Source: Thermodesulfobacteriota bacterium (GTDB taxonomy: Bacteria > Desulfobacterota > Anaeroferrophillalia > Anaeroferrophillales > Tharpellaceae). Taken from it: 48,075 nt of DNA. A program made the translations under genes and the position numbers. The notes beneath the pieces were generated by a model. That model searched no databases. It saw nothing but the letters and a program-made list of their open reading frames with translations, and was not told the DNA's origin. Shown in pieces: positions 29,796 through 47,984 of the stretch (position 1 is the stretch's first letter; each line of letters begins with the position of its first letter). The DNA lies in NCBI GenBank assembly GCA_024762675.1, contig JANTGZ010000008.1, positions 1 through 48,075 on the forward strand, given 5' to 3'.

Positions 29796-31265
29796 TCACA
29801 TAATCATCTTAACCGATTCTCGGGCCAGATTCCAGATATATGAGGGGAACATACCCATCTGCAGTACGCCGAAAGCCGCGATTGAAAGTGCTGCTATCAT
29901 AGTGCCGGCGGGGGCGATAATATTGATTTCGCGTTCGGATTCCTTAAAATACATCCGCACGATAACTCCCAGGTAGTAGTAGAGCGAGATTACACTGTTG
30001 ATAACCCCAAAAATCGCCAACCATATGTAACCCGACTTAATAGCTTCGGAAAAGATAAAGAATTTACCCATGAAACCGGCCGCCGGGGGGATCCCGGCCA
30101 TTGAGAAGATAAAGACGGTCATCATCAACCCCAGAAAAGGATATTTAAATCCGACTCCGGAAAAATCGCTGAGCTCACTATACTCTTCGTTCTTTTTACC
30201 CATCGCAGAGATTACGGCAAAAGCACCAATATTAGCAAAAGCATATGCGAGCAGGTAAAAGAGCACGCCCGAACGGGCCAAATCGGTACCGACAACAAAG
30301 CCAATCAGAAGATAACCGGCATGGGCGATACTGGAATAAGCCAGCATCCTCTTGATATTTGACTGAGATATCGCAACCAGATTTCCGATCGTCATCGTCA
30401 ACAAGGCGGCAAGCCACATTATCGCCGTCCAGTCGACCTGTAAAGGGCCAAAACCGACAAAGAAAACCCTGATTAAAGCAGCAAAAGCGGCGGCCTTAAC
30501 TCCGGTTGCCATAAAACCGGTGACCACAGTCGGAGCCCCCTCGTATACATCAGGGGTCCACATATGGAAGGGGAACATTGCGATTTTAAAACCGAAGCCG
30601 ACGGTCATCAAGGCAATTCCACCAAGGACCATGGGATGATGCAGAGTATCGGGGTGGGCCGTAAAGAATTTTCCAAGTTTGACGATATCGAGGGTTCCGC
30701 TGGCACCATAAACCAGGGCAAAACCAAAGAGTAGAAATCCGGAGGCGAAAGCACCCAAAAGAAAATACTTAAGGGCGGACTCTATCGACTTTAGACTGTC
30801 ACGCTTAAAACCAGCTAAAACATAAATAGAGATAGACATGGTTTCAAGAGCAACAAAAATCATAATCAGGTTGCCGGCATTGCCCATAAAGGACATTCCG
30901 AATGCTGCGAAGAGGAGTAGACAGTAGTACTCGCCTGCCTTAATCTCCGGACAGATGCGTTCATAACCCATTGAAACGAGAATCGTTAAGAAAGCCACAC
31001 AACAGACAATCAAAGTAATAAAGAAACCAAATCCATCGGCCATCAACATCCCGGCATAAGCAGACTCAAAACTACCGCGCGTCATAAAGAGAGCGATCAG
31101 GGCGGAGGCAACCCCTACAAGCGATAGAGACCCAAGAGAGGTCTTGCCCTCTTTTCCGGCAAAGACATCGACTAATAGTACGGTCAACGCCGTCAAAGCC
31201 AGTAACAGCTGTGGCAGAATCGCCTTAAGATTGAGTGCCGGGACAACAAATTCCAGCATTTCCAT
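29796..31265 (-). CDS. nuoN: NADH-quinone oxidoreductase subunit N
   Basis: Antiporter-like proton-pumping subunit of complex I, 489 residues with about 14 membrane helices. Recognised by FKIAMFPFHMWTPDVYEGAPTVVTGFMATGVKAAAFAAL (the broken helix with conserved Lys) and IFVALETMSISIYVLAGF (conserved Glu). ATG 31265 has GGAGG six bases upstream and is preferred to GTG 31268 used in the track. Last gene of the operon. Confidence 0.96.
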   Translation of the reverse strand: MEMLEFVVPALNLKAILPQLLLALTALTVLLVDVFAGKEGKTSLGSLSLVGVASALIALFMTRGSFESAYAGMLMADGFGFFITLIVCCVAFLTILVSMGYERICPEIKAGEYYCLLLFAAFGMSFMGNAGNLIMIFVALETMSISIYVLAGFKRDSLKSIESALKYFLLGAFASGFLLFGFALVYGASGTLDIVKLGKFFTAHPDTLHHPMVLGGIALMTVGFGFKIAMFPFHMWTPDVYEGAPTVVTGFMATGVKAAAFAALIRVFFVGFGPLQVDWTAIMWLAALLTMTIGNLVAISQSNIKRMLAYSSIAHAGYLLIGFVVGTDLARSGVLFYLLAYAFANIGAFAVISAMGKKNEEYSELSDFSGVGFKYPFLGLMMTVFIFSMAGIPPAAGFMGKFFIFSEAIKSGYIWLAIFGVINSVISLYYYLGVIVRMYFKESEREINIIAPAGTMIAALSIAAFGVLQMGMFPSYIWNLARESVKMIM

Positions 31266-31340
31266 CACTCTCCTCCAAATTTATGTATTATGTATATGGT
31301 AATTAAATATATCTATTAACTGCAAATCCAGTCGTGAAAA

Positions 31341-32927
31341 TCAATCAAGCAAGGTGCTCTTTAATTTACCCTCTTCAAGAACTGCCGCAAGCCTGGCGGC
31401 CCCGGTATCTTCCAGACCTTGTTCGTACATGGCGACTTGCTTCTTATAGGTCTTTAAAAAGTGCTCACAGGATGCATCCATTTTACGCAGGAAGTACCCG
31501 GGAAAGAAGCCCATGACGAAAACCAGGATGGCAAGCGGCAACAGAGTCATGATCTCACGAGCGTTGAGATCCTTCAAAACTTTATTCTCCTCCTTATCAA
31601 GGGGTTGGAACATCACCCGCTGATACATCCAGAGCATATAGAGAGCCCCTAATATCGCTCCTGATGTGGCAAAGACTGCGAAGACCGGAAAGGTTCTGAA
31701 GGCCCCAACCAAGATCATAAATTCGCCGACGAAGCCATTGGTACCCGGTACCGCGACTGATGACAGGGTAGCGATCATAAAAAAGGTTGCATAGATCGGC
31801 ATAACCTTAGCAATACCGCCAAAATCTTTGATCATGCGGGTATGACGGCGCTCATAGATCATGCCGACGATAAGGAAGAGTGCGCCGGTGCTGATCCCGT
31901 GATTGAGCATCTGGTAAAGACCACCTTCAACCCCTTGCATATTGAAAGCAAAGATGCCGAGCATGACATAACCCAAGTGGCTGACACTGGAGTAGGCAAC
32001 CAGTTTTTTCATATCCGGTTGTATCATAGCGACCAGAGCACCATATATGATACCTATGACCGCCAGTACCGCAATCACCGGAGTAAACTGATGGCTGGCA
32101 TAAGGAAACAGAGGAATTGCAAAACGCATGAAACCATAAGTCCCCATTTTCAAGAGAACACCAGCCAAGATAACACTACCGGCGGTCGGGGCCTGAACAT
32201 GGGCATCCGGCAACCATGTATGCAGTGGAAACATCGGCACCTTGATGGCAAAAGAGACAAAAAAGGCAAGACAGAGCCAAAACTGGGTCGATACCGGAAT
32301 ATTAAGTTTATAGAGTTCAAGAAGGTCAAATGTATAAACGCCAGTGGTTTTATGATTCAAATAGTAGAGAAAGAAGATCGAAAGAAGCATGAAAACCGAG
32401 CCGGCCGCTGTATAGAGAAAGAATTTAACGGCCGCATAGATTTTATTATCACCACCCCAAACCCCGATCAGGAGATACATCGGAATCAACATCAACTCCC
32501 AAAAAACATAAAAGAGGATAAGATCGAGAGATACCAAGGCTCCGAGCATTGCGGTTTCAAGTAGCAACAAACAGATCATGAACTCTTTGACCCGTTTTTC
32601 AATATAGGTCCATGAACAGAGCACACAGAGCGGCGTCAGGAAGGTAGTTAAAATAATAATCCAGATACTGATGCCGTCGAGGCCAACAAAATAGCTTAAG
32701 CCAGCACTTTTTACCCAAGTATAACGTTCGACAAACTGCATGGCTGCAGTACCGTTCTGAAAGCTGAAAAGGAGCGGCAACGAGATAATGAACTCGATTA
32801 AGGCAAAGGCCATGGCAGTGCCTCGAAGCGTATCTTTCGCATCTTTGTCGATAAACATCAGGATCAAGACCCCGAAGATCGGAAAGAAGGTCACAAGGCT
32901 GATAATCGGAAAACCTAGCTCATTCAT
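31341..32927 (-). CDS. nuoM: NADH-quinone oxidoreductase subunit M
   Basis: Antiporter-like subunit, 528 residues, about 14 membrane helices. [22 protein letters not shown] carries the conserved pump Glu, and [41 protein letters not shown] the conserved Lys region. The C-terminal tail is somewhat long and charged ([22 protein letters not shown]). GGAGAG precedes the start. It sits between nuoL and nuoN in the standard order. Confidence 0.97.
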
Positions 32928-33004
32928 CTATTGCTCTCCCTGCTTCTGTGTAGTACTTGGGAATTATATCAAATTCAAATAAAATAAAGTGTAGTATCTT
33001 CTGT

Positions 33005-35092
33005 CTAAAGCGCTTTCAGGAAGTAGTATCCAAGAAGTACAACGGTACCAAAGACCACCGATACGGCGTAACTCTGTACATAACCGGATTGCATGTAGCG
33101 TACCGCTGATGAACCCCAGCCGACAATACGGGCAACCCCATTGACGATGGCATCGACAACGCCGACATCAACCCCTTTCCAGAGGAAATAACTAAAACCT
33201 CTTAAGGGTGAAATTATGACCAGGTCATAGAGTTCATCGATATACCACTTATTGAGCAGTAAGCGATGCACAAAAGCATATTTTTCGGCCAGAGCAACCG
33301 GTACTTCACGTTTGACTATGTACATAAAATAAGCTACGAATATACCAAAGCAGGCAATTGCCACCGAGACCGCCATCAAAAGATACTCAACCCACAGCGG
33401 TGGATGGTGAGCCCCATGGTGTCCGCCGGCAGCTTCTGCCATATGACCGGCAGCAGCATGAGCGGCATGTCCTGCGGCTTGAACGGCCTGATGGGCACCA
33501 TGCGCGACAGCCGTTGTCGCATCTTGCAGTAGTTTTCCATCCCCTAATCCGATTACCGGCTCGAGGAAATGATGAAACATATTGCTGCCGCCCAAAGCAT
33601 GCGGAACACCTAGGTAACCGCCTACAGCAGCCAAAAAGGCAAGAATGATAAGCGGAACTGTCATAGTCTTAGGTGACTCGTGAATATGTTCAGCCGCATC
33701 CCCGGCCCGACAATCATTAAAGAAGGTCATAAAAAGCAAGCGAAACATGTAGAAAGCGGTCATCCCAGCGGCGACTGCACCAATCAACCAAAGTAGCCAG
33801 TGACCCTGGGGACTGCTGAAGGCCTTCCAGAGGATCTCATCCTTACTAAAAAACCCGGAGAATCCTGGAATGCCGGCAATCGCAATGGTACCAACGAGAA
33901 AAGTCCAGAAAGTGATCGGGGTCTTACTCTTTAAACCGCCCATATTGCGCATATCCTGTGCGTCATCATGGGAGTGAATTTTATGATAAGCATGATGCAT
34001 CGAGTGAATGACGGCACCAGAGCCTAAAAACATCAGGGCTTTAAAGAAGGCATGGGTTAAGACATGAAACATCCCCGCGGTAAAAGCACCAACTCCCAAA
34101 CCCAGAAACATATAACCCAGCTGACTGACAGTTGAGTAAGCCAAGACCTTTTTTATATCGTTTTGCACAAGACCGATTGAGGCTGCAAAAAGGGCCGTCA
34201 AGGCTCCGACGGTTGCAACTACACCCATGGCAAAAGGAGACATGGAATAGAGGATATTGGAGCGGGCTATCATGTAGACACCCGATGTCACCATAGTTGC
34301 CGCATGGATCAGAGCACTGACCGGAGTCGGACCGGCCATCGCATCAGGTAACCAGACATAAAGAGGAATCTGGGCTGATTTGGCGGTACAACCGATAAAA
34401 AAGAGTAAGCAGATTGCAGTGGCCTGACTAGTGGAAAGGTGATGGACATTACTGAAGACTTCGTTGAACTGCAGGCTCCAGACCCCATGTTCGCCGAGCC
34501 CGGTAAAAAGTAAAAACATACCGATAAGAAAGGCAAAGTCACCGACCCGATTAGTAATGAAAGCTTTTTTACCGGCAATCGCATTGGCCTCATCGTCAAA
34601 CCAGAAACCGATCAAGAGATATGAACACAATCCCACACCTTCCCAGCCAAGGAACATCAAAAGATAATTGTTGGCCAGAACCAGGTTGATCATGGAGAAC
34701 ATAAAAAGGTTCAGGTAGACAAAGAAGCGATAGTAACGGCCGGGATCACCATCCATATAGCCAATTGAGTAAACATGAATCAGAAAACCAATCCCGATAA
34801 CAAACATCGCCATCATCATTGAGAGCGGATCTATCAGATAAGCTATATTGGTCTGCAGAATTCCACTGTTAATCCAAGGTAAGCAGGTCACCTGATAAAT
34901 ACGCTCCGTCGCAGGCAAACCCTGGAGCTGAAAGAATATAATACAGGTAACAATAAAGGAGAGGGCTATCATGCCACAAGCAATCCAGTGTATCAGACTC
35001 TTGTTGATCGCTTCAATACGGCGTCCGAGCAGACCATTGATCAAGACTCCGATGGCCGGAAAAACCGGTACCAGCCAGATATAATCGAACAT
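33005..35092 (-). CDS. nuoL: NADH-quinone oxidoreductase subunit L
   Basis: The largest antiporter-like subunit, 695 residues, about 16 membrane helices and the C-terminal piston-like helix typical of NuoL. MFLGWEGVGLCSYLLIGFW and KSAQIPLYVWLPDAMAGPTPVSALIHAATMVTSGVYMIAR are diagnostic; STVSQLGYMFLGLGVGAFTAGMFHVLTHAFFKALMFLGSGAVIH follows. An unusual Ala/His-rich stretch (AHGAHQAVQAAGHAAHAAAGHMAEAAGGHHGAHH, residues about 529-563) lies before the last helices. AAGGAG precedes ATG 35092. A palindromic repeat separates it from nuoK. Confidence 0.97.
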   Translation of the reverse strand: MFDYIWLVPVFPAIGVLINGLLGRRIEAINKSLIHWIACGMIALSFIVTCIIFFQLQGLPATERIYQVTCLPWINSGILQTNIAYLIDPLSMMMAMFVIGIGFLIHVYSIGYMDGDPGRYYRFFVYLNLFMFSMINLVLANNYLLMFLGWEGVGLCSYLLIGFWFDDEANAIAGKKAFITNRVGDFAFLIGMFLLFTGLGEHGVWSLQFNEVFSNVHHLSTSQATAICLLFFIGCTAKSAQIPLYVWLPDAMAGPTPVSALIHAATMVTSGVYMIARSNILYSMSPFAMGVVATVGALTALFAASIGLVQNDIKKVLAYSTVSQLGYMFLGLGVGAFTAGMFHVLTHAFFKALMFLGSGAVIHSMHHAYHKIHSHDDAQDMRNMGGLKSKTPITFWTFLVGTIAIAGIPGFSGFFSKDEILWKAFSSPQGHWLLWLIGAVAAGMTAFYMFRLLFMTFFNDCRAGDAAEHIHESPKTMTVPLIILAFLAAVGGYLGVPHALGGSNMFHHFLEPVIGLGDGKLLQDATTAVAHGAHQAVQAAGHAAHAAAGHMAEAAGGHHGAHHPPLWVEYLLMAVSVAIACFGIFVAYFMYIVKREVPVALAEKYAFVHRLLLNKWYIDELYDLVIISPLRGFSYFLWKGVDVGVVDAIVNGVARIVGWGSSAVRYMQSGYVQSYAVSVVFGTVVLLGYYFLKAL

Positions 35093-35166
35093 ACCTATAA
35101 CTCCTTAAAGTTCCAGATGAGAATTATTACTTTACTGCAAATCTTTTGAAAACTTGTCTAATTTGA

Positions 35167-35295
35167 GATGGCTAAGTTAAAATTTCGATACACAAGGATC
35201 TGTGATTTTTTCGGGCGCGAGACAAAACAAGTAGTATGTCGAGTGTCTGAAAAAATCACGACTACGCAGGAGATCGGAATTTTTACAACGCCATC
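35167..35295. mobile_element. 129-bp palindromic MITE-like repeat between nuoK and nuoL
   Basis: The whole 129 bases form one imperfect palindrome: it starts GATGGC and ends GCCATC, has a perfect 11-base core pair GTGATTTTTTC (35202-35212) / GAAAAAATCAC (35249-35259), and the outer arms TTAAAATTTCGAT and ATCGGAATTTTTA align with few mismatches. It carries no coding potential and overlaps the nuoK stop codon. The left 18 bases recur exactly at 2730-2747. This is the structure of a non-autonomous palindromic element; no transposase is present in the window. As RNA it would fold into a very long hairpin inside the nuo transcript. Confidence 0.75.
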
Positions 35296-35599
35296 ACCAT
35301 TTCAAGAGATTGAATTTGTCTAGATCAATCGACCCATGCTTGCGATACATCAGCACAAAAATAGCTAATCCCACTGCAGCTTCAGCCGCCGCTACTGCCA
35401 TGACAAACAGAACCATAAAGATGCCGTCGAGTGACTGATAGGCCCGACTGAAAGTAACAAAAGCAATGCTGACACCAGCCAACATTATCTCTATACACAT
35501 GAAAACGACAATCGCGTTACGACGGCAGACTGCACCTGCTGCACCAATAATAAACAGAACTACCGAAAGTGCCAGATAGATACTTTGATTTTCAATCAT
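35294..35599 (-). CDS. nuoK: NADH-quinone oxidoreductase subunit K
   Basis: A small 101-residue membrane subunit with three helices. Conserved acidic residues are in CIEIMLAGVSIAF (second helix) and AAAEAAVGLAIFVLMYRKHGSIDLDKFNLLKW (third helix and tail), both parts of the charged channel of complex I. GAGGTGAGGGAG precedes the start. Its stop codon lies inside the palindromic repeat. Immediately follows nuoJ. Confidence 0.97.
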   Translation of the reverse strand: MIENQSIYLALSVVLFIIGAAGAVCRRNAIVVFMCIEIMLAGVSIAFVTFSRAYQSLDGIFMVLFVMAVAAAEAAVGLAIFVLMYRKHGSIDLDKFNLLKW

Positions 35600-35612
35600 T
35601 GCTCCCTCACCT

Positions 35613-36122
35613 CTACTTTACGCGCTTTGATAGGACTACAGCGCCAACAACGCCGGCAGTCAAGAGAATTGAAGCAACTTCAAAAGGGAGCAGGTAGTCA
35701 GCAAAAAGAAAATTTGAGATCACTGCCACCCGACCATGGGTTGCAACCAGTATATCGGTAATTGGACCCTGCATGGCGGTCAGACTATGTCCGAGGCCGA
35801 CCAACATGAGTTCGAGAAAGAGTACCAGCAGGGCGGCTACACCAACCACTTTTGAAACTCGGCCCATCACCTTAGAATCCCTCTCCTGACGCAAATTAAG
35901 CATCATGATAGCATAGACGATGAACATCATAATGGCGCCGGCATAGACGATGATCTGCAACATAGCCAGAAACTGAGCATGCAGAAGAACATAAATTATG
36001 GCCACCATAAAGAAGGACAAAACCATCCACAAGGCACTATGCAACGTAGAGCGGGCAAATATAACCAACAGGGAGGCGATAACTGCCAATCCGCCGCATA
36101 TCAATAAAAATACCAGTTCCAT
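35613..36122 (-). CDS. nuoJ: NADH-quinone oxidoreductase subunit J
   Basis: A 169-residue membrane subunit with five predicted helices; typical features are LVIFARSTLHSALWMVLSFFMVAIIYVLLHAQFLAMLQIIVYAGAIMMFIVYAIMMLNL, the conserved NuoJ core including the pi-bulge helix. The track start 36140 is a TTG; ATG 36122 with AGGAG seven bases upstream is the true start (MELVFLLICGG). Adjacent to nuoI with a short gap. Confidence 0.96.
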   Translation of the reverse strand: MELVFLLICGGLAVIASLLVIFARSTLHSALWMVLSFFMVAIIYVLLHAQFLAMLQIIVYAGAIMMFIVYAIMMLNLRQERDSKVMGRVSKVVGVAALLVLFLELMLVGLGHSLTAMQGPITDILVATHGRVAVISNFLFADYLLPFEVASILLTAGVVGAVVLSKRVK

Positions 36123-36146
36123 CAATTCACTCCTGAACAAGTTACA

Positions 36147-36623
36147 TTATTTGCCGTTGAAGATAAACTTTTCCGGGTTTTTTAATTTTTCTATATCGAA
36201 GATAAAATCTTCACGCTGATAATCAACAAAATCATAAACCTTCGATAACTCAATCGCATCTTTGGGACACGCTTCCTGACAAAAACCACAAAAAATGCAG
36301 CGTAGTTCGTCGATTACAAATTCTTTCGGGTAACGAGTTCCGCCAGCCTCTTCGTAGGGTACGATGGTGATTGCCTGAGGAGGACAGATCTTGGCACAAA
36401 GTCCGCAAGCGACACATTTGAGAGCACCCTGTTCATCAACTTTCAAGCGATGCAGTCCCCGCCAACGGTCACTAACCTCACGACGCTCGGTAGGATACAT
36501 GATCGTAATCGGCTTACTGAAAAAATTCTTCAGGGTGTAGCCCAGTCCTTTCAGGATCGGCGTGATAAATTTTCCTGTCGGCCGCCGGTCGCTGATATTC
36601 ATTGCATAATCTTTGTCTGCCAT
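36147..36623 (-). CDS. nuoI: NADH-quinone oxidoreductase subunit I (two 4Fe-4S clusters)
   Basis: Peripheral-arm subunit of 158 residues carrying clusters N6a and N6b. The two motifs are CVACGLCAKICPPQAI (about residues 75-90) and CIFCGFCQEACPKDAIELS (about 114-132), all eight cysteines present. The N-terminal helix region (ILKGLGYTLKNFFSKPITIMYPTERREVSDRWRGLHRL) is as in other NuoI. AGGATGAT precedes ATG 36623. It passes electrons from the NuoG-like/FdhA subunit towards NuoB. Confidence 0.97.
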   Translation of the reverse strand: MADKDYAMNISDRRPTGKFITPILKGLGYTLKNFFSKPITIMYPTERREVSDRWRGLHRLKVDEQGALKCVACGLCAKICPPQAITIVPYEEAGGTRYPKEFVIDELRCIFCGFCQEACPKDAIELSKVYDFVDYQREDFIFDIEKLKNPEKFIFNGK

Positions 36624-36688
36624 ATCATCCTCATCGAAGCCTTACTGCCATTTACCGGCATAAAGGTCATTAAAACAGTCTCTCTCTT

Positions 36689-37675
36689 TTACAGGTTAAA
36701 CACCAGCATCCACAATCCCGTAAGCATGATGTTAAGCAGTCCGAAAGGAAGCAGGATTTTCCACCCGAAACTCATCACCTGATCATAGCGTAAGCGCGGG
36801 AAAGTTGATCGTTCCCAAACACAGAAGAAAATAACTATAAAAACTTTTAGAAAGAACCAGTGCGGACCGTCAACCACAGGGCCATGCCAGCCCCCGAGAA
36901 ACAGGGTCGTGACCAGGGCAGCAAAGACAAACATGTGACAATATTCGGCCATAAAAAAGAGAGCAAACTTCATTGAGCTGTACTCAACATTGAAACCACA
37001 TGCAAGTTCAGCTTCAGCTTCAGGCATGTCGAAAGGAGTTCGATTGAGCTCAGCCAGGCCGCAGATAATAAAAAGGATAAAAGCGAAAGGTTGCTTGACT
37101 ATATTCCAAAGTCCGGTTTGCGAATTGACAATATCGATCAGACTCAAGGAGCCACTAACCATCACTACCGCAATAACAGCCAGGGCCAGAGAGAGCTCGT
37201 AACTGATCATTTGGGCCGTACCACGCAGACCACCTATCACACCATATTTATTTCCCGAGGACCACCCACCCAGGATACCGCCATAAGAGCCTATTGTCGA
37301 AATTGCAAGGACCAGCAGTATACCAACATCCAAGTCGGTCAAGTAGAGATTTATTTCGCGACCCATAATTGTAATTTTATCGCCAAAGGGGACGATAACC
37401 ACCAAAGTCACAGCCGCTCCAATACTTATGATCGGTGCAAGCAGGAACAGCGGTTTATCTGCATTATCGGGGAGCAGCTCTTCTTTGAAGAAACCCTTGA
37501 TACCATCGGCGATGGGTTGCAAAAGACCATGGAAACCAACCCGATGAGGACCATGCCGCAACTGAACATGGCCTAAGACTTTCCGCTCAATCCAGGTTGA
37601 ATAAGCCACAATCAGGAGGCTGACAACAAAAGCCACCAATGTCTTAATTATCAGTATGGTCATAAACTCTAGCAT
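36689..37675 (-). CDS. nuoH: NADH-quinone oxidoreductase subunit H
   Basis: Membrane anchor that forms the quinone cavity with NuoB and NuoD; 328 residues with about eight helices. Diagnostic: WIERKVLGHVQLRHGPHRVGFHGLLQPIADGIKGFFKEE near the N-terminus and ELNRTPFDMPEAEAELACGFNVEYSSMKFALFFMAEY, rich in the conserved acidic residues of the E-channel. AGAGG lies upstream of the start. In this operon it follows the FdhA-like gene directly, where nuoG would normally be. Confidence 0.97.
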   Translation of the reverse strand: MLEFMTILIIKTLVAFVVSLLIVAYSTWIERKVLGHVQLRHGPHRVGFHGLLQPIADGIKGFFKEELLPDNADKPLFLLAPIISIGAAVTLVVIVPFGDKITIMGREINLYLTDLDVGILLVLAISTIGSYGGILGGWSSGNKYGVIGGLRGTAQMISYELSLALAVIAVVMVSGSLSLIDIVNSQTGLWNIVKQPFAFILFIICGLAELNRTPFDMPEAEAELACGFNVEYSSMKFALFFMAEYCHMFVFAALVTTLFLGGWHGPVVDGPHWFFLKVFIVIFFCVWERSTFPRLRYDQVMSFGWKILLPFGLLNIMLTGLWMLVFNL

Positions 37676-37755: not shown

Positions 37756-40434
37756 TTAAACAGCTTTTTCCACCTTAACAGCACAAACCTTGTACTCCGG
37801 TATTTTCGCGACCGGGTCAAGAACTGCATTGGTCAGACGATTTACCGCAACTTCATGGAAGTGAAAGGGGACAAAAACCAAGCCGGCTGCAGGTCGGTCA
37901 CTCAACCACGCTTTTACTTCTATGCTGCCCCGCCGTGAACTGATACTCAGCAGATCGCCGTCTTCCACCCCGAGACGTGCTGCATCTTCCGGGTTTATCT
38001 CTGCCTTTATCTCAGGGTGGACTTTATTTAAGCCCTCACCTTTACGAGTCATGGTTCCGGTATGAAAATGTGAATGAACCCGACCAGTCGTCAAAATAAA
38101 GGGATATTCAGCATCGGCATTTTCGGCCGGCGGCTGATGGTCAATAGTAAAAAAGAGACCCTTTCCCCGTGAAAAGTTGCTGACATGAAGGATAGGAGTT
38201 CCGGGATGATCGGTATCAGGGCAGGGCCAGGCCAGCCCTTTTTCGGCAATCCGCTCATAGGTTATCCCGCCATAACTGGGGGTCACCTGACTTATCTCCT
38301 GCATTATCGCTTCAGCACTCTCATACTTCATCTCATAACCCATGCGGGTCGAAAGCTCGGCGATAATTTCGCGATCTTCGCGGGCTTCGCCGGGGATCGT
38401 CAAAGCTTTGCGGATACGCTGCACAACCCGTTCGGAGTTAACAAATGTACCATCTTTTTCGGCAAAAGATACCCCGGGCAGTACCACATCGGCCATCTTT
38501 GCGGTCTCAGTCATAAAGAGATCCTGGACCACAAAAAAATCGAGAGCTTCAACACAGTGCTCAATATGTGTGAGATCGGGGTCACTGACTAAAGGATTCT
38601 CACCCATTATGTACATAGCCTTGACCTTACCCTCCGCAGCAGCTGGAAACATCTCAGTCAAGACAAGTCCGGGATTGGCATCTAGAGCATCGGCTTCAAG
38701 GCCCCAAGCCTTGGCAAATTTTTCCCGTACCTCAGGAATATCAACTTTCTGATAACCGGTATAGACATTAGGCAGACCACCCATGTCACAGGCACCTTGG
38801 ACATTGTTCTGACCACGCAGAGGATTAACTCCACCGCCCTCTACTCCCATATTGCCGCAGAGCATAGCCAGGTTACCAAGGGATTTCACATTGTCGGTTC
38901 CACAACTATGCTGAGTGATACCCATGGCGTAAAGAATAGATGCCGGGCTCGCCTGACCATATAGTTTGGCAGCGGCATAAAGTTCATCTTCAGACAACCC
39001 GGTTATACCGGAGACATATTCCGGGGTATATTTTTCCAGATTTTTGGCAAAATCTTCATACCCTTCGCAACGCTCAGCGACATACTCTTGAGCCGCCCAA
39101 CCTTCTTTGATAATGATGTGCATCAAGCCATTGATCCAGGCAATATCAGTCCCCGGCTTAGGTTGCAGGTAGAGCTCGGCATAATCTACCAGATCAATGC
39201 GGCGTGGATCTATGACGAGAATTTTAGTTCCGTGCTTAAGAACCGCTTCTTTAAGATAGTTGGCAAAGATAGGATGATTTTCAGTAGTATTGGTTCCGGT
39301 TACAAGGACAGTCTCAGATTTCAGAACGTCTTTGATCGGGTTAGTCATCGCTCCACTTCCGAATGTGGCGGCCAGTCCGGCCACCGTTGAGGAGTGTCAG
39401 AGCCTGGCGCAGTGATCGACATTATTAGTCCCGATCGCAGCGCGCATAAATTTCTGAAAAAGGTAATTTTCTTCGTTACTGCAACGGGCTGAAGTCAGGC
39501 CGCCAATGGCACCGCCGCCATGTTCCGCTTTAATGGCCGAGAACTTTTCAGCTACCAAACTTAAAGCTTCATCCCAACTGGCTTCCTGAAACTCACCATT
39601 CTGTTTGATCATTGGTGTTTTCAGGCGATCATCACTGTTGATAAATTCGTAACCAAAACGCCCTTTGACACAGAGACTTCCTTGATTAACGCCAACTCCA
39701 TCTTTGGTGGTTACTGCAATAACCTGATTGTTTTGAACGTTGAGTTCGAGCTGACAACCACAACCACAATATGTACAGGTCGTCGGAACCCTGTCGATGA
39801 GCCAGGTGCGCCCTCTATAACGACTCAAGTCAGCCGTCAAGGCACCAGTTGGACAGACCTGGAGACATTCGCCACATGATTGACAAATCTCCGGATCAAC
39901 CGCAACCACCTGAGCTCCGTAGCCATCACCTTCGATACTGATGGCTCCGATCCCTTTAATCTCCTGGCAAGCAGTAACGCAGCGCAGACACATAATACAA
40001 CGATCTGGCCAATATCGAATCAACGGAGTCGCATAAAGAGAATCGCGATCTACCTTAGCAGCCGTATACTCAACTTTATCAATACCGTGTTCATAAACCA
40101 GATCCTGCAAAAGACACTCACCACCCTTGTCGCATATCGGACAATCAAGCGGATGGTTGACCAGAATCAACTTCAATGAATCCTGGCGAATCCGGGTCAG
40201 ACGATCGGAATTAGTTGTAACTTCAATACCATCCTCAACCGGAGTTGTACACGCCGCCATGGGGTGTCCAAAGCCATCGATCTCCACCACACACATACGA
40301 CATGATCCAATCGGATTCAGACGTTCATGATAACAGAGAGTCGGGATTCTGATATCGACACTTTTGGCCGCCTCAAGGATGGTCGTTCCCTGGGGGACGG
40401 TGACTTCCTTACCGTCAATCGTCAACGTGACCAT
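37756..40434 (-). CDS. fdhA: Selenocysteine-containing formate dehydrogenase alpha / NuoG-like subunit (UGA read-through)
   Basis: The ORF track splits this gene at a TGA (39397-39399); both parts are in the same frame and read [28 protein letters not shown], the molybdenum-ligand site of formate dehydrogenases. The full product is 892 residues with Sec346. Order: NuoG-like 2Fe-2S (CYHERLNPIGSCRMC), His-Cys cluster (HPLDCPICDKGGEC), two ferredoxin clusters (CIMCLRCVTAC, CQSCGECLQVCP), the pterin-domain 4Fe-4S (CTYCGCGC), bis-MGD catalytic domain with Sec-His and the substrate Arg (SERVVQRIRKA), and the C-terminal MGD-binding domain. It probably oxidises formate and feeds electrons into the complex I arm in place of NuoG. 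AGGGA precedes ATG 40434. Resembles NAD-linked FdhA and SfrA. Confidence 0.93.
39354..39396 (-). promoter_or_regulatory. Bacterial SECIS element in fdhA
   Basis: Immediately after the UGA the mRNA can fold with a 7-bp upper stem GGUGGCC / GGCCGCC closing a GGACU loop, and a lower stem CACUCC / GGAAGUG with one bulged A. The loop begins exactly 18 bases after the UGA, the same spacing as in the E. coli fdhF SECIS, whose loop is GGUCU. This is where the SelB-Sec-tRNA complex would bind. Confidence 0.88.
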
Positions 40435-40508: not shown

Positions 40509-42461
40509 CTATACCTTAACTGTTGCAACTCGATAACAGCGCAAGCAGCGATCCGCCTCAGCCATCGCATCCTGGATTGAAAAGCCCTGCTCGACCTCGT
40601 CGTTGGTAAACTTTCTTGTATCAGGATCGAGCATCTCCAACTCTTTGCGCTCACGCCCCCCGAGAAAGCCAATATCCTCAGACTGATCGTAGACTTTAAC
40701 TTTTTTGAAGAACTTATCAAAATAATCGTCTTCACTATATTCCAAAGATCTACCATTGATCATTTTATCGATACTAAATGCTGCTGTTCGACCTCCCGCA
40801 CATGCGGTTATAAGGGCTCCAGGACCGGTTTCACAGTCACCACCGGAAAAGATCTTGGGCTCATCGCTCTGTTTGGTCAACTCATCGACAACAATCGTTT
40901 TCCAACGCGTAGTTTTAACATCTTCACGCCCTTCGAGAAGCGAAAGATCCATTGTCTGGCCGATTGCCGGCACCACAATATCACAATCAATCACAAACTC
41001 GGACCCTTCAACCGCAACCGGACGGCGACGACCACTCTCATCGGCCTCGCCAAGCTCCATACGGACACACTCAAGGCCGACAACCTTACCATTCTCAGCT
41101 ATAATCTTCACCGGATGAGTCAGATAATGAAAATTAACCTTCTCCTCTTCGGCATCATGTATTTCAACATGATCAGCTGGCATCTCATTTTTGGTCCGAC
41201 GATAGACCAGGTTGACATCCGGTTTATCGACCCTGAAGGAGCAACGCACGCAGTCGATTGCGACATTACCACCGCCGACAACCACAACTTTTTTGCCGGC
41301 CGGATAGGGATCTCGTCCCTGGTTGATATCTAACAGGTATTGTACACCTGAGATATAACCATCGTAATTTTCCTCTTCCCCTTCGACTCCCATCGTCGTT
41401 CCAAGATGGGCGCCTATGGCGATAAAAACCGCATCATTATCAGCTTCGAGCTGGGACAGTTTAATATCTTTACCGACTACGGTTTCGTAGTTAAACTTAA
41501 CCCCCATTCTTTCGATCCGATCGACCTCTTCGCGTAAGATAGGCCGGGGCAGGCGATAGTCAGGTATGCCCATAGCTGACATTCCGCCAGGCTCGTCGAA
41601 GCGTTCGTAGACGGTCACATCATGCCCCTTACGTGCGAGATGGTAGGCACAGGTCACACCACTTGGACCAGCTCCAACAATTGCTACTTTCCCGGTTTTC
41701 TCTGAAGGCTCAATCTCAAATTCGGGCTCTTTACCCTTACCAAGCTCATAATCAGCAACAAAGCGTTTGAGAAATTTGATCGAGATTGGCGCATCTAGGT
41801 TCATACGTCGACAATGCTCTTCACAAGGACGCACGCAAACCCGACCTACGACACCCGGCAAGGGTAGTTTCTCACGAATTACATCCAGAGAATCCTGAAA
41901 CCTGCCCTCTTTTATACATTCAACATAGGTTGGAATATCGAGATGAATGGGACAGGCATCCATACATGGTGCCGTCAATTTAGAATGATAAGAGCCGGCA
42001 GGAACTGCTTTTTTATCGTTGATTGCGGCTTCAAACTTCTCCGCAAAATGTTCTAAAGCATGAAGGATCGGCACCGGCCCGGACTGACCTATATTACATT
42101 TTGAAGACTCCTGGATGGATTCAGCCAAGCGGCCCAAAACCTCAAGATCCTGAGGTTTCCCTTGCCCCTGACAAATTCTTTCCAGGGTCTCGGCCATAAC
42201 CCGGGTACCAATCCGACAGAGGAAACATTTGCCACAGGATTTCTCCTGAATCTCTTTCATGTAGACCCGGCTCAAATCAACGACATCGGTCTCCGGATCA
42301 CGAATGACTAATCCGTACCAGCCCATCAGAGCTTTAACCGCTTCGTCCTGTCTGAAATATTCCGGCAGTTCAACACTGTTGACCGGCTCTAAGTCCTGGC
42401 CTTCTTTGTCGCGGTTGTCAACTACTTCACCGCCCCAGGAACTAAATAAAATCTCAGCCAT
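40509..42461 (-). CDS. NuoF C-terminal domain fused to a GltD/NfnB-like NADPH flavoprotein (SfrB-like)
   Basis: A 650-residue cytosolic chimera. Residues about 30-155 match the C-terminal 4Fe-4S domain of NuoF (EIQEKSCGKCFLCRIGTR ... SSKCNIGQSGPVPI), but NuoF's FMN/NADH part is missing. Then comes the GltD-like N-terminal cluster domain (APCMDACPIHLDIPTYVECIKEGRF, GRVCVRPCEEHCRR), the FAD fold VAIVGAGPSGVTCAYHLARKGHDVTVYERFDEPGGM, and the nucleotide fold VVVVGGGNVAIDCVRCSFR, ending with EADRCLRC. Such proteins include the beta subunit of the NADPH-dependent SfrAB reductase. I infer NAD(P)H dehydrogenation or electron exchange with the FdhA-like partner. ATG 42461 has GGGAG upstream; the track's TTG 42479 is not used. 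Confidence 0.9.
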   Translation of the reverse strand: MAEILFSSWGGEVVDNRDKEGQDLEPVNSVELPEYFRQDEAVKALMGWYGLVIRDPETDVVDLSRVYMKEIQEKSCGKCFLCRIGTRVMAETLERICQGQGKPQDLEVLGRLAESIQESSKCNIGQSGPVPILHALEHFAEKFEAAINDKKAVPAGSYHSKLTAPCMDACPIHLDIPTYVECIKEGRFQDSLDVIREKLPLPGVVGRVCVRPCEEHCRRMNLDAPISIKFLKRFVADYELGKGKEPEFEIEPSEKTGKVAIVGAGPSGVTCAYHLARKGHDVTVYERFDEPGGMSAMGIPDYRLPRPILREEVDRIERMGVKFNYETVVGKDIKLSQLEADNDAVFIAIGAHLGTTMGVEGEEENYDGYISGVQYLLDINQGRDPYPAGKKVVVVGGGNVAIDCVRCSFRVDKPDVNLVYRRTKNEMPADHVEIHDAEEEKVNFHYLTHPVKIIAENGKVVGLECVRMELGEADESGRRRPVAVEGSEFVIDCDIVVPAIGQTMDLSLLEGREDVKTTRWKTIVVDELTKQSDEPKIFSGGDCETGPGALITACAGGRTAAFSIDKMINGRSLEYSEDDYFDKFFKKVKVYDQSEDIGFLGGRERKELEMLDPDTRKFTNDEVEQGFSIQDAMAEADRCLRCYRVATVKV

Positions 42462-42512: not shown

Positions 42513-43685
42513 CTAACGATCGATCTCGCCCAACACAATATCAATACTCCCGATAACCGATATGGCATCTGCGAGCATATGGCCCTTCATCATCTTCTCC
42601 AGTGCGCTGACCAATATAAAACAGGGGGAGCGCACCTTCATACGGTAGGGGTTCTCAGTGCCGTCGCCAACCAAGTAAAAACCTAGTTCACCCTTTGAAC
42701 CTTCTACTGCATGATAGATCTCTCCTTCAGGTACTTCGGGCCCCTGGCACTGAATCTTAAAGCGCCGGATCAAAGCACTTATATCCTTTTCAACGTCAGC
42801 AAGGTCGGGGTTGGCAATCAAGGGATTATCAACATTAACTGGCCCTTCTGGTAAATTTTCAAGAGCTTGCTCTATTATATTCAGCGATTGTGTAAACTCT
42901 TCCATGCGTACCAGATAACGATCATAGACATCACCATTATCTCCTACCGGCACCTTAAAATCAAAATCTCCATAACTACTATAAGGCATCGCCTTACGGA
43001 CATCGTAAGCTACTCCAGAGCCTCTGAGAGAGGGTCCGGTGAGACCGTAATTGACCGCTTCTTCAGCAGATATCTTACCGATCCCCATGGTTCTTTTGCG
43101 CCAGATAATGTTGTCGGTAAGCAACGTATTGTAACCATCAACTGCAGTCGGAAACCATTTGATAAATTCGCGCAGATATTTAATGAAATTGGGAGTAATA
43201 TCCTTGGCCACGCCACCGACTCTGAGATAAGAAGGAGTCAAGCGATAACCGGAGACCTCCTCGGTCATATTCATGATCATCTCGCGATCACGGAAGGTAT
43301 AAAAGACCACCGTCATAGCCCCGATATCCAGGGCATGACTGCCGATCCAAAGATGATGCCCCATAATCCGGGCTAACTCTCCCATTATAACCCGAATATA
43401 CTGAGCTCTCTTGGGGACTTCAATACCAAGAAGCTTTTCCGCAGCGGTACAGTAACCCATGTTGCATAGGGTCGCCGCCGTATAGTCAAAACGGTCAGTC
43501 AAGGGTATGACCTGCTGGTAGTTCATGCTCTCCGCGATCTTTTCGATGCCCCGGTGCAGGTGCCCAATATGGGGCGTGACCTTGACGATTGTTTCGCCAT
43601 CAAGCTCCAGAACCAGACGCAAGACCCCGTGAGTCGCTGGATGATGCGGACCCATGTTGATGGTCAATAATTTTCCCTCAGCCAT
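42513..43685 (-). CDS. nuoD: NADH-quinone oxidoreductase subunit D
   Basis: The 49-kDa-type subunit that forms the quinone site with NuoB; 390 residues. MGPHHPATHGVLRLVLELDGE and TPHIGHLHRGIEKIAESMNYQQVIPLTDRFDY are hallmark strings and contain the conserved quinone-pocket His; the C-terminus ISVIGSIDIVLGEIDR is typical. It is separate from NuoC, unlike the fused NuoCD of E. coli. ATG 43685 with GAGG upstream is preferred over the TTG of the ORF track (43694). Confidence 0.97.
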   Translation of the reverse strand: MAEGKLLTINMGPHHPATHGVLRLVLELDGETIVKVTPHIGHLHRGIEKIAESMNYQQVIPLTDRFDYTAATLCNMGYCTAAEKLLGIEVPKRAQYIRVIMGELARIMGHHLWIGSHALDIGAMTVVFYTFRDREMIMNMTEEVSGYRLTPSYLRVGGVAKDITPNFIKYLREFIKWFPTAVDGYNTLLTDNIIWRKRTMGIGKISAEEAVNYGLTGPSLRGSGVAYDVRKAMPYSSYGDFDFKVPVGDNGDVYDRYLVRMEEFTQSLNIIEQALENLPEGPVNVDNPLIANPDLADVEKDISALIRRFKIQCQGPEVPEGEIYHAVEGSKGELGFYLVGDGTENPYRMKVRSPCFILVSALEKMMKGHMLADAISVIGSIDIVLGEIDR

Positions 43686-43744
43686 CGCTACCAACCTCAG
43701 TATAAGTTATCTCTATTTTATCGAAAAATACTAATCTAATTAAC

Positions 43745-44248
43745 CTAAAGAACCTGAATCGTATCAGGGTTCCACTTTTCATCAAAGTCCTTCCCTCTTA
43801 AGGGAAAATCTTTACGTAGAGGATGTCCATCGAAATCATCCCACATCAGGATTCGCCGCAGGTCGGGATGATCACTGAAACCGATCCCCAGCAAATCATA
43901 GATCTCACGCTCAGGCCAGTTGGCTGATTTCCAGATATCGGTTACAGTTGGCACCTCAACATCTTCAGGAACCATGACTTTAACCAGAAGACGGCGGAAG
44001 TCGTCCATTGAATGCAAAACATAGACAACCTCAAATCGAGGCTCTCTTGGCATTTTATCAATCCCCAACACATCTGAAAGAAGGTCATAATGCAGGGTCT
44101 TATCATCATGCAGATAGAGCATGATATCATGCAATTTTTCGAGACTGACGACAATTGTCAGGTCACCCCTGAAATCAACATCCGCTACGATTGCATCGGC
44201 AAACTCACCCTGCAACTGTTCCAGCACTTTAGCATTATCCATAGTCAT
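43745..44248 (-). CDS. nuoC: NADH-quinone oxidoreductase subunit C
   Basis: The 30-kDa-type peripheral-arm subunit, 167 residues, identified by the signature SANWPEREIYDLLGIGFSDHPDLRRILMWDDFDGHPLRKDFPLRG near the C-terminus. Structural, with no cofactor. An AGGAAGAG site precedes ATG 44248. It lies 22 bases after nuoB and 59 bases before nuoD. Confidence 0.97.
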   Translation of the reverse strand: MTMDNAKVLEQLQGEFADAIVADVDFRGDLTIVVSLEKLHDIMLYLHDDKTLHYDLLSDVLGIDKMPREPRFEVVYVLHSMDDFRRLLVKVMVPEDVEVPTVTDIWKSANWPEREIYDLLGIGFSDHPDLRRILMWDDFDGHPLRKDFPLRGKDFDEKWNPDTIQVL

Positions 44249-44270: not shown

Positions 44271-44801
44271 CTAACACAAACTGACAATATCAGACTTACT
44301 GCTTGAAGGCTCACTATAATCGGGCCGCGAGGTAAACTTATCCTGCATTATTTTATCCTGCAGTTTCATGATACTAGCCAGGAGAGCTTCCGGTCGCGGA
44401 GGACAGCCCGGAACATATACGTCTACGGGAATAATCTGATCGACTCCCTGAACCACCGAGTAGCTTTGAAAGATCCCACCACAAGAAGCGCAGGCTCCCA
44501 TTGCAATTACCCAACGAGGCTCAGCCATCTGTTCATAAATACGTTTCACCATGACCGACATTTTCTTGGTCAAGGTTCCGGCAACAATCATCAAGTCGGA
44601 CTGGCGCGGCGACGGTCGAAAAACCTCGGATCCGAAGCGGGCGATATCGTAGCTACTCAAACTAGTAGCCATCATCTCCAAAGCGCATCAGGCCAAACCG
44701 AAGGTACAGGGCCAGATCGAATTCTTACGCCCCCAGTTAACCAGACCTTCAAGGTTGGTAACCAGGAATCCGTCGCCCTTTAATGCACTCTCTATTCCCA
44801 T
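44271..44801 (-). CDS. nuoB: NADH-quinone oxidoreductase subunit B with in-frame UGA at a cluster N2 cysteine (candidate selenoprotein)
   Basis: The ORF track starts this gene late at 44681 because a TGA (44688-44690) interrupts it. Upstream of the TGA the same frame encodes a normal NuoB N-terminus, [10 protein letters not shown]...[17 protein letters not shown], starting at ATG 44801, which overlaps the nuoA stop by 10 bases. The junction reads [16 protein letters not shown], where other NuoB have GLACCAIEMMATS, so UGA sits exactly at the first of the two tandem cysteines that bind cluster N2. The other ligands are present ([17 protein letters not shown]). Total 176 residues with Sec38. NuoB carries N2, the last cluster before quinone. 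No other lesion is seen. Selenocysteine or a base error are the two readings; without read-through no functional NuoB would come from this locus. Confidence 0.85.
44650..44671 (-). promoter_or_regulatory. Candidate SECIS hairpin in nuoB
   Basis: Downstream of the nuoB UGA the mRNA can form a perfect 6-bp stem GCUACU / AGUAGC extended by a G-U and a U-A pair, closing an AGUUUG loop. The loop starts 24 bases after the UGA and has G as its second base, which fits the published bacterial SECIS consensus (G in the first two loop bases, roughly 16-37 bases from UGA). The stem is less GC-rich than the fdhA one, so it is a candidate only. Confidence 0.45.
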
Positions 44802-45148
44802 TCCAAGGCTCCCTTTTTCCAGACATAGATATAACACACAAAGAGGATCACCATAAAAATGGCCATCTCAACAAACCCAAACAGACCCAGGCTTTTATAG
44901 TGAACCGCCCAAGGGTAGAGGAAGACACACTCCAAATCAAAAACCAGAAAGAGCAGAGCGACAACGTAATACTTGATTGGTGTCTGCACGTAGCTTGCAC
45001 CAATAGTTGTCATGCCACACTCATAAGTCTCTTTTTTTACCCGAGATTTTCGATTCGGCCCCAGAACACTGGAAAGCACTACGGCGACAACCCCAAATCC
45101 TACACCGACAATCATCATCAGCAGTACGGGTACATAATCTTGCAACAT
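44792..45148 (-). CDS. nuoA: NADH-quinone oxidoreductase subunit A
   Basis: A 118-residue membrane subunit with three helices. TYECGM and [32 protein letters not shown] are the conserved NuoA segments, the latter with the acidic residues near the quinone cavity; KKGALEWE is the tail. AGGGGTGAAGAGAT precedes ATG 45148. First gene of the operon, transcribed from a near-perfect sigma-70 promoter about 108 bases upstream. Its last 10 bases overlap the nuoB start. Confidence 0.96.
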
Positions 45149-45767: not shown

Positions 45768-47984
45768 ATGATTAAACGAATGTGGAATTTGCTAATTGAC
45801 TTTATCCGCGATTTCGGCCACGAGGCCGCTCGCGGAACCCGTGAGCACTGGAAGGGTTTACTTATTTTTGCAGCGGTTTCTTTCTGCATCTTCATTTTGA
45901 TAATTGTCTTGCTGCTTAAAGCCACAGCTAATTATCAATTTTGCGCCATGTGTCATAACATGAACACCTACATTGAATCCTGGAAGCAGTCCTCGCATAA
46001 GGATGTGAGCTGCCTGGAGTGCCATTTTGAACCCGGCGTCTGGGGCGAACTCAAAGGCAAATGGAAGGCCCAAACCCATGTTGTCATGAAAATCACCGGC
46101 ACCGCTCCGCCCCGCCCGCATACTGTAATCAGTGACGCAAGTTGCCTGCGGGAGGGTTGCCACTCAACTGCAGGGCTCGAGGAAGGTACTGTAAACTTCA
46201 AGGGTGTGGCCTTCAGCCACGACACCCATTTAAGTGAGTTGCGACGTGGTAAAAAATTAAAGTGCGTCAGCTGTCACTCCCAAATTGTTCAGGGACAGCA
46301 CCTTACGGTTACCGAGACAACCTGCTTTAACTGTCATTTTTACGACAAAGAGAATCATCCGGAAATTGCAGATTGCCAAACTTGCCACACCGACTCAAAG
46401 GCTAAAATCTTTATTGATGCCAATGAAAATATGCCATTCGTTCACAAAGATTATCTCGACCGAGGCGTAAACTGTGAACAGTGCCATTTTGGCATCATTT
46501 ATGGTGACGGTCACGTCATGGACAACGTCTGTGTCCAATGCCACTCCGAACCCCACCTGCTCGAGGGTAGTTACAGCAGTGAAAAGATGCATTTCAGCCA
46601 TGTCACGGGGCACAAGGTCGAGTGCTTTCGCTGCCACTCCGGCATTGAGCACTATATCCCCCGAGAGAAGTCAAATAAATATCAGGAACGCCAAACCTTA
46701 TTGCGAACCAAAGCACTCAATTCTGGTCTGCATTACGACAGCAACTGCGCCAAATGCCATACTTTTGGCCAGCACACCATTATCCATCAGATGTACGCCG
46801 GCGAAGGTGGCATTGAGCACAAAGCCTCTCCGAGCCCCATGTATCAGGCTCATCTTGACTGTGCCGGCTGTCACCTTGCGATCTATGATGTCAACGGCGA
46901 ACCCCGCAAACTTAAACGCCAGGGATTCGACGAAATGATCAAATCCTGTTCTGAGTGCCATGGCCCTGGATACGACGATATGGCTAAGCACTGGAAAGAG
47001 GTCCTCGAACAGGAGTTGACTAAAACTGCCAAGACTCTACGCGACACTAACCAACTTCTCGCTAAAGGCGATTCAACCGATGCCATGCGGCTCTATGATA
47101 TTGCCCAGAAAAATTATACCTTTGTTAAAAACAGTCACGGTATCCATAACATCGATTTCGCTTTAAGCCTGCTGGCTGATTGTCGAACTCGCTGCGAGAA
47201 AGCCAAAACCATTATCAACCCAGCCTACCAGGCCGCCGCAATAACCTCACCTTCGGGCTGTACGGATCTGTGTCACAACTGTGTTGAGTGTATCGAAACC
47301 AAACCGGTACCTTTTGGCGAAGTCCAATTCCCACATGATGTTCATGTTGTCGATGAAGGACTTACCTGTCTGGAATGTCACAGCCCACGTGAACAACACG
47401 GCCAGACAATTCTCAAAAATTGTAAGGATTGTCACCATGGTTCGGGTATGGGTGCGGTTGAATGTGCCGACTGCCACACCGCTGCTTTCAATCTTTATAA
47501 AGGGCAGAATGCCTGCGATGAGATCAGCTGTGATGTCCGCGGGACCGCTAACTCCATGGCCGCAGATGTCAGTTGCAAAGACTGTCATATCCAGGTTGAA
47601 GAGGGCGAAAGCATGACTGACGAAGCCCTCAAACAGGCCTGTATCAGCTGCCATGATGACGATCCCACTTACGGAACCATGATTGATGAGTGGCGCCAGG
47701 AAGTTGAGGCTTTAGATATTAAAACCCTGAAGAATCAGCTCCAGCAAGTACAGAAATCGGTGCTTTCGGCTATCAGAAATGGTGACTACACCTATGACGC
47801 CCAGGATTTGGTCAACAATGCTGATAAAAACCTGAAGCAGCTTCTTAACGGCAACCCGATCCACAATCTTGAATTTGCTAAAGATTTGGCAGGTAAAGTT
47901 AAAACCTTAACCGACAAGGCTCGTAAACAGTTACAACGCCACAGCACTATCAAGACCTTGGGTGACAAGGAGTACAAATATTGA
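45768..47984 (+). CDS. Multihaem cytochrome c with NapC/NirT-like membrane anchor
   Basis: A 738-residue predicted periplasmic electron carrier anchored by one N-terminal helix (about residues 30-52, FAAVSFCIFILIIVLLL). I count 16 canonical CxxCH haem motifs (first CAMCH at 59, last CISCH near 625) plus CLREGCH (CX4CH, about 126) and CTDLCH (CX3CH, about 498), so 16-18 haems. The first part resembles NapC/NirT/NrfH quinol dehydrogenases. Two helical modules without haem (about 405-480, with VKNSHGIHNIDFALSLL, and 640-725, with LNGNPIHNLEFAKDLAGK) look duplicated. It could take electrons from the menaquinol pool to periplasmic or extracellular acceptors. AAGGAG lies 8 bases before the start; a strong terminator follows. 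The partner is unknown. Confidence 0.88.
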   Translation: MIKRMWNLLIDFIRDFGHEAARGTREHWKGLLIFAAVSFCIFILIIVLLLKATANYQFCAMCHNMNTYIESWKQSSHKDVSCLECHFEPGVWGELKGKWKAQTHVVMKITGTAPPRPHTVISDASCLREGCHSTAGLEEGTVNFKGVAFSHDTHLSELRRGKKLKCVSCHSQIVQGQHLTVTETTCFNCHFYDKENHPEIADCQTCHTDSKAKIFIDANENMPFVHKDYLDRGVNCEQCHFGIIYGDGHVMDNVCVQCHSEPHLLEGSYSSEKMHFSHVTGHKVECFRCHSGIEHYIPREKSNKYQERQTLLRTKALNSGLHYDSNCAKCHTFGQHTIIHQMYAGEGGIEHKASPSPMYQAHLDCAGCHLAIYDVNGEPRKLKRQGFDEMIKSCSECHGPGYDDMAKHWKEVLEQELTKTAKTLRDTNQLLAKGDSTDAMRLYDIAQKNYTFVKNSHGIHNIDFALSLLADCRTRCEKAKTIINPAYQAAAITSPSGCTDLCHNCVECIETKPVPFGEVQFPHDVHVVDEGLTCLECHSPREQHGQTILKNCKDCHHGSGMGAVECADCHTAAFNLYKGQNACDEISCDVRGTANSMAADVSCKDCHIQVEEGESMTDEALKQACISCHDDDPTYGTMIDEWRQEVEALDIKTLKNQLQQVQKSVLSAIRNGDYTYDAQDLVNNADKNLKQLLNGNPIHNLEFAKDLAGKVKTLTDKARKQLQRHSTIKTLGDKEYKY

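Follow-up and report, generated by a model that had tools for sequence, protein, structure and literature searches.

SfrAB, the NADPH-linked soluble Fe(III) reductase of Geobacter, places a GltD-like FAD/NADP(H) subunit beside a NuoG/FdhA-like subunit (PMC7483475). In a Geobacter complex I operon, the set BfuABC replaces NuoEFG; this Nuo-Bfu arrangement retains an FMN-containing NuoF-like subunit (BfuB) and a NuoE-like subunit (BfuC), and its predicted electron donors are NADH plus ferredoxin (PMC9304861). A nuo cluster lacking its N-module has also been reported from Desulfobacterota, and its electron donor is unknown (PMC12142623). Here we describe an operon that appears to encode a 13-subunit complex I in which an SfrB-type subunit replaces NuoE and NuoF and which would be fed by formate and NADPH, a reading to which we give a probability of roughly two in three.

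An SfrB-like chimera inside a nuo operon

The window, by which we mean the whole stretch of 48,075 nucleotides that was analysed, belongs to a metagenome-assembled genome (MAG) of a deep-sea bacterium that is about 91% complete (the genus Candidatus Tharpella is described in PMC9213671). Its features are as follows.

44792..45148, minus strand: NuoA
44271..44801, minus strand: NuoB; in the N2 ligand motif (GLA-U-C-ALEMMA), the first tandem Cys position is occupied by an in-frame TGA (44690-44688)
44651..44670, minus strand: SECIS-like hairpin downstream of the NuoB TGA, recognized by stability and pair changes
43745..44248, minus strand: NuoC
42513..43694, minus strand: NuoD
40509..42461, minus strand: SfrB-like chimera gene (650 aa), a NuoF-type N3 [4Fe-4S] domain plus a permuted GltD/NfnB-type FAD/NADP(H) module
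42027..42272, minus strand: NADH_4Fe-4S domain of the chimera (NuoF C-terminal), N3-type ligands C76, C79, C82 and C122
41739..41975, minus strand: Fer4_20 cluster domain of the chimera; C166, C170, C209, C213 and C217 invariant in 85 homologues
40797..41690, minus strand: FAD and NAD(P)H Rossmann domains of the chimera, with GAGPSG at 263, GGGNVA at 396 and invariant YRR at 420-422
40530..40616, minus strand: C-terminal EADRCLRC segment of the chimera (residues 616-644), aligning with residues 28-56 at the N-terminus of NfnB from the same genome
37756..40434, minus strand: NuoG/FdhA fusion subunit (892 aa), TGA read through as Sec346
39344..39402, minus strand: SECIS_3-like element (Rfam) over the Sec codon (TGA 39399-39397)
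29796..37675, minus strand: NuoH, I, J, K, L, M and N (membrane arm plus NuoI)

The order is thus nuoA-B-C-D-chimera-fdhA-H-I-J-K-L-M-N, with the Q and P modules complete (NuoABCDHIJKLMN) and no NuoE or NuoF gene among the open reading frames of the window. Separate, unlinked NuoE/F genes are conceivable, since the MAG is only about 91% complete. Three further NuoF-like proteins are encoded in the genome, and those on contigs C13 and C33 have other partners; by eye, these two loci carry BfuABC/HydB-type sets near likely 2-oxoacid oxidoreductase and Hdr/fumarase genes. Divergent from nuoA lies a gene for a 738-aa multihaem cytochrome c (45768-47984, plus strand) with a NapC/NirT N-terminus and cytochrome c7/c3 repeats.

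The chimera reads from an ATG at 42461 to a stop at 40509, so that the span given in an initial annotation of this DNA is correct and the strand is minus; a plus-strand gene is ruled out by stops in frame. That annotation had proposed a fusion of NuoF and GltD parts from which the NADH/FMN portion of NuoF was lost, and the domain searches bear out both claims. A single chain matches the Pfam families NADH_4Fe-4S (residues 64-145, E 8e-25, 86.9 bits against a cut-off of 23.5), Fer4_20 (163-241, E 5e-24) and Pyr_redox_2 (258-555, E 3e-29), values that exclude chance, and the best NCBIfam match of the N-terminus is nuoF_fam at model positions 303-410 of 410; the FMN/NADH domain of NuoF is absent by Pfam and NCBIfam. 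These matches identify the protein as a NuoF C-terminal cluster domain fused to a complete GltD/NfnB-type module. No NCBIfam equivalog was above cut-off among the matches listed, the best being PRK12771/PRK12814. An AlphaFold2 model is confident end to end (mean pLDDT 92.3, pTM 0.90) and finds its best fold matches in NfnABC, StnABC and NfnI, while relatives in the PDB are StnC/NfnA chains over residues 158-643 and NuoF/HydB C-termini over 25-160.

Judged from its alignment, the GltD/NfnB module is circularly permuted, with its CxxC cluster motif at the C-terminus. Residues 166-571 align with residues 59-472 of NfnB from the same genome (40% identity overall), and the match of residues 616-644 to NfnB 28-56 indicates that one half of the first cluster motif, EAxRCLRC, has been transferred to the C-terminus, where each of 85 homologues has C639 and C642. 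The NuoF domain is located at the permutation cut. Nor is this gene alone in having the permuted module, since the StnC-type chain 9bov_A can be aligned in sequence with the chimera right through the same C-terminal motif.

NADH_4Fe-4S, Fer4_20 and Pyr_redox domains in one chain with a NuoG/FdhA-like subunit adjoining define an SfrB-type protein. The chimera is therefore a flavoprotein of an already known kind, and its architecture is not unique. Nor is it a rare oddity, an idea ruled out by strong matches (E <= 1e-140) in 134 of 395 sampled genomes of the phylum. Some of these matches are longer frames of about 1000-1090 aa that align with chimera residues 26-642, and larger fusions of the module thus exist. 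A plasmid collection yielded distant matches only (<60% identity).

For comparison we used 85 full-length homologues, from 80 neighbourhoods and others on named MAG contigs; they are a sample picked from the matches and no census. All share the domain architecture of the chimera, and those at two loci (L011 and L018) show 90-91% identity. The initial annotation had counted a gene found mostly outside nuo loci against its proposal; 44 of the 85 lie in nuo operons and 41 outside. Many families of the phylum repeat the order A-B-C-D-chimera-NuoG/FdhA-H-I-J-K-L-M-N, and neither a NuoE/NuoF gene nor any match to the FMN module was found in the 84 chimera loci scanned, whether nuo-linked or not. At six loci (L082, L085, L088, L091, L096 and L104), nuoH follows the chimera directly with no NuoG gene between; the first five have a Sec-FdhA gene upstream of nuoA instead, and at L104 none occurs within the fetched stretch. 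Nuo-linked copies of this sort, such as L085, L096 and L104, weigh against the proposed complex.

The partner subunit and the proposed electron path

The gene downstream of the chimera had been called FdhA-like. It does encode a formate dehydrogenase, but its active site had been overlooked, as this contains the in-frame TGA for Sec346. A NuoG-type N-terminus (Fer2_4, NADH-G_4Fe-4S_3 and Fer4) with NuoG-like cluster motifs (HxxxCxxCxxxxxC at 94, CxxCxxCxxxC at 146 and 184) precedes a catalytic domain that carries U346-H347 and the active-site Arg motif LRGQNNVQG at 539. The protein scores 871.8 bits against TIGR01591 (cut-off 666), and its closest solved relatives are the NuoG-like alpha subunits of NAD+-dependent formate dehydrogenases (9wxb, 6tg9). 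At the Sec codon, SECIS_3 scores 58.6 bits (E 7e-12), just under the gathering score of 63, and the genome encodes SelB and tRNA-Sec. A split of FdhA into two genes is ruled out: there is a single Sec-containing chain. The Sec residue is kept in the organism's own order and several other families; in others it is lost with a degenerate site, and there the complex is presumably driven by NAD(P)H only.

In complex I, the N3 domain is the piece that passes electrons to NuoG. The initial annotation had suggested that the retained domain is a docking piece by which a foreign dehydrogenase plugs into complex I. In favor of this idea, NuoE/NuoF are replaced within a conserved nuo order (44 of 85 homologues), the loci lack an FMN module, and the four N3 cysteines (C76, C79, C82 and C122) are intact in all 44 nuo-linked copies. 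Yet a NuoG/FdhA-like gene lies directly downstream of the chimera both inside nuo loci (35 of 43) and outside them (32 of 41), which suggests that the N3 domain links the protein to a NuoG-type subunit and not to complex I in particular. That role is likely because the domain is fully conserved beside such a partner. Moreover, since about half of the sampled homologues lie outside nuo loci, the subunit can work without complex I. In the operon described here, the chimera is likely to plug into the NuoF site.

If the subunits assemble in this way, NADP(H) would bind at the GltD-like module and exchange hydride with FAD, after which the Fer4_20 clusters would relay electrons to the N3 cluster kept from NuoF, and this in turn would hand them to the 2Fe-2S/4Fe-4S chain of the NuoG-like partner. 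This partner is also a Sec formate dehydrogenase, and the same chain could therefore accept electrons from formate. From there, electrons would flow through NuoI to NuoB, whose cluster N2 probably has one Sec ligand, and to menaquinone, with ion pumping by the NuoHJKLMN arm. The choice of NADP(H) is a prediction from the YRR motif, whose R421 and R422 are invariant in the 85 homologues and shared with the NADPH enzymes NfnB and GltD. Reverse operation, in which the ion-motive force would drive production of formate or NADPH for the Wood-Ljungdahl pathway, is possible because the genome encodes AcsB/CdhC and FTHFS, markers that sit together on one contig.

Alternatively, the pair could form an NADP-linked formate dehydrogenase that is soluble and SfrAB-like and is merely co-transcribed, leaving an 11-subunit complex I to take ferredoxin or another donor. 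We consider this unlikely, although it is the rival to be taken most seriously. For example, the 32 non-nuo homologues with an FdhA/NuoG-like gene directly after them have only that gene there, which is the arrangement of SfrAB; a second nuo cluster in the genome described here comprises 11 subunits and lacks an N-module; and another genome (G197) keeps an 11-subunit nuo operon and a chimera-FdhA pair at separate loci. Against it, the pair sits between nuoD and nuoH, the exact place of nuoEFG, in many families, and the partner subunit carries the full NuoG N-terminal cluster chain. Likewise, all four N3 ligands are present in every nuo-linked copy and not in all others: the C82 position is Gly in 14 of 41 non-nuo homologues, a contrast that is suggestive only, because all 14 fall in one SfrB-like part of the tree and the change probably reflects one or two events.

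Far less probable is that the chimera is an Nfn-type electron-bifurcating enzyme that splits NADPH electrons at its FAD between ferredoxin and complex I, which the initial annotation had thought conceivable. The 40% identity with NfnB and the fold matches to the bifurcating NfnABC/StnABC and to NfnI would fit such a role, but the chimera has a single flavin site, and the locus lacks NfnA as well as BfuB/BfuC (NuoF/NuoE), NfnAB being encoded elsewhere, on contig C4. In addition, the conserved Glu of the NfnB motif RLERF in the Fer4_20 domain, which we take to be a cluster ligand in NfnB, is Lys232 here (FLKRF). For Nfn-Bfu, the homologous FAD is itself predicted to serve simply as an NADP(H) site and not as the bifurcating one (PMC9304861).

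A candidate selenocysteine at cluster N2

By alignment with Thermus Nqo6, the in-frame TGA of nuoB stands at the leading residue of the tandem Cys pair that binds N2. Almost every relative from the same order has this TGA too, as do members of other families, with TGC or TGT in sister lineages. A hairpin 14-41 nt 3' of the TGA is more stable in TGA versions (mean -8.2 kcal/mol) than in Cys versions (-5.3 kcal/mol; p 2e-5, an optimistic value because the sequences share ancestry), and windows of nuoB away from the hairpin show no such difference. The stem also exhibits two-sided pair changes (G-C, C-G and U-A at one pair; C-G and U-A at two), with the reservation that it was chosen for this analysis after the TGA sequences had been viewed, which likewise makes p-values optimistic. 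The region has no match in Rfam. SelB is found in 21 of 26 genomes with TGA-type NuoB and in 20 of 21 with Cys-type NuoB, so that its presence does not discriminate; of the five TGA genomes without it, four are only 61-81% complete and the fifth is fragmented.

It is very improbable that the two TGA codons result from sequencing errors or mark pseudogenes in a partly broken operon, as a MAG source and truncation of each gene under the standard code might suggest. Many independent assemblies share each TGA at the same residue, sister lineages have Cys codons there, and the frames are open on both sides; together with the SECIS evidence and the presence of SelB and tRNA-Sec, this in effect rules the idea out.

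Selenocysteine is thus probably one ligand of cluster N2. The Yarrowia counterpart of this ligand, the first tandem Cys, is more mobile than the second and adjoins the quinone-binding tyrosine (PMC8042128). A complex I that combines Sec at N2, in the first tandem Cys position by the quinone site, with an input module fed by formate and NADPH seems to us quite probable. The second nuo cluster of this genome (contig C4), 11-subunit and N-module-less, has a Cys-type NuoB and lies downstream of NfnAB. In G197, a TGA-type NuoB is encoded in the 11-subunit operon (L163), which has neither chimera nor NuoEFG between nuoD and nuoH, and the chimera and Sec-FdhA genes occupy a separate locus (L077).

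Our paper searches found no report of a selenocysteine NuoB, which is not among the entries of a May 2026 selenoproteome review, and no description of an SfrB-type subunit as a complex I input module in the open-access literature (subscription papers lay outside the search). If the proposal is correct, NuoB would constitute a new family of selenoproteins and offer a natural means of asking whether N2 chemistry contributes to proton pumping. The N-module would be exchangeable for a formate/NADPH module, with one NuoF cluster domain kept as the connector, and many 'N-module-less' nuo operons of unknown donor would be explained. The proton pump of complex I would gain new fuels, formate and NADPH, and new chemistry in the form of Sec at the last Fe-S relay.

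Relation to known systems

The likeness to SfrAB rests on a clade of non-nuo homologues in our sample that has the domain architecture of the chimera, SfrB of G. sulfurreducens itself being compared by description. Unlike SfrAB, the pair reported here lies within a complete nuo operon and its partner is a Sec formate dehydrogenase; compared with the SfrAB-like non-nuo homologues, it has all four N3 cysteines, one of which is Gly in 14 of those proteins. Nuo-Bfu resembles our locus in that a foreign electron-input module substitutes for NuoEFG inside a nuo cluster, whereas our locus has a GltD-type module and lacks FMN, NuoE and the BfuB/BfuC core.

The best fold and sequence matches come from StnABC/NfnABC, the Sporomusa-type Nfn (9bov_A, 9n5u_A and 8oh5_C), in which a GltD-like module is likewise wired to NuoG-like and NuoF-like parts. 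However, in those enzymes the NuoG-like chain carries the GltD module and is accompanied by a complete NuoF/NuoE pair, while in the chimera the only fusion partner of the module is the NuoF 4Fe-4S domain. Finally, the alpha subunits of NAD+-dependent formate dehydrogenases (6tg9_A, 9wxb_B) combine a NuoG-like N-terminus with a formate dehydrogenase domain as our partner subunit does, although the latter has Sec in place of Cys, and in the beta subunits (6tg9_B, 9wxb_C) the match to the chimera is confined to the C-terminal N3 domain.
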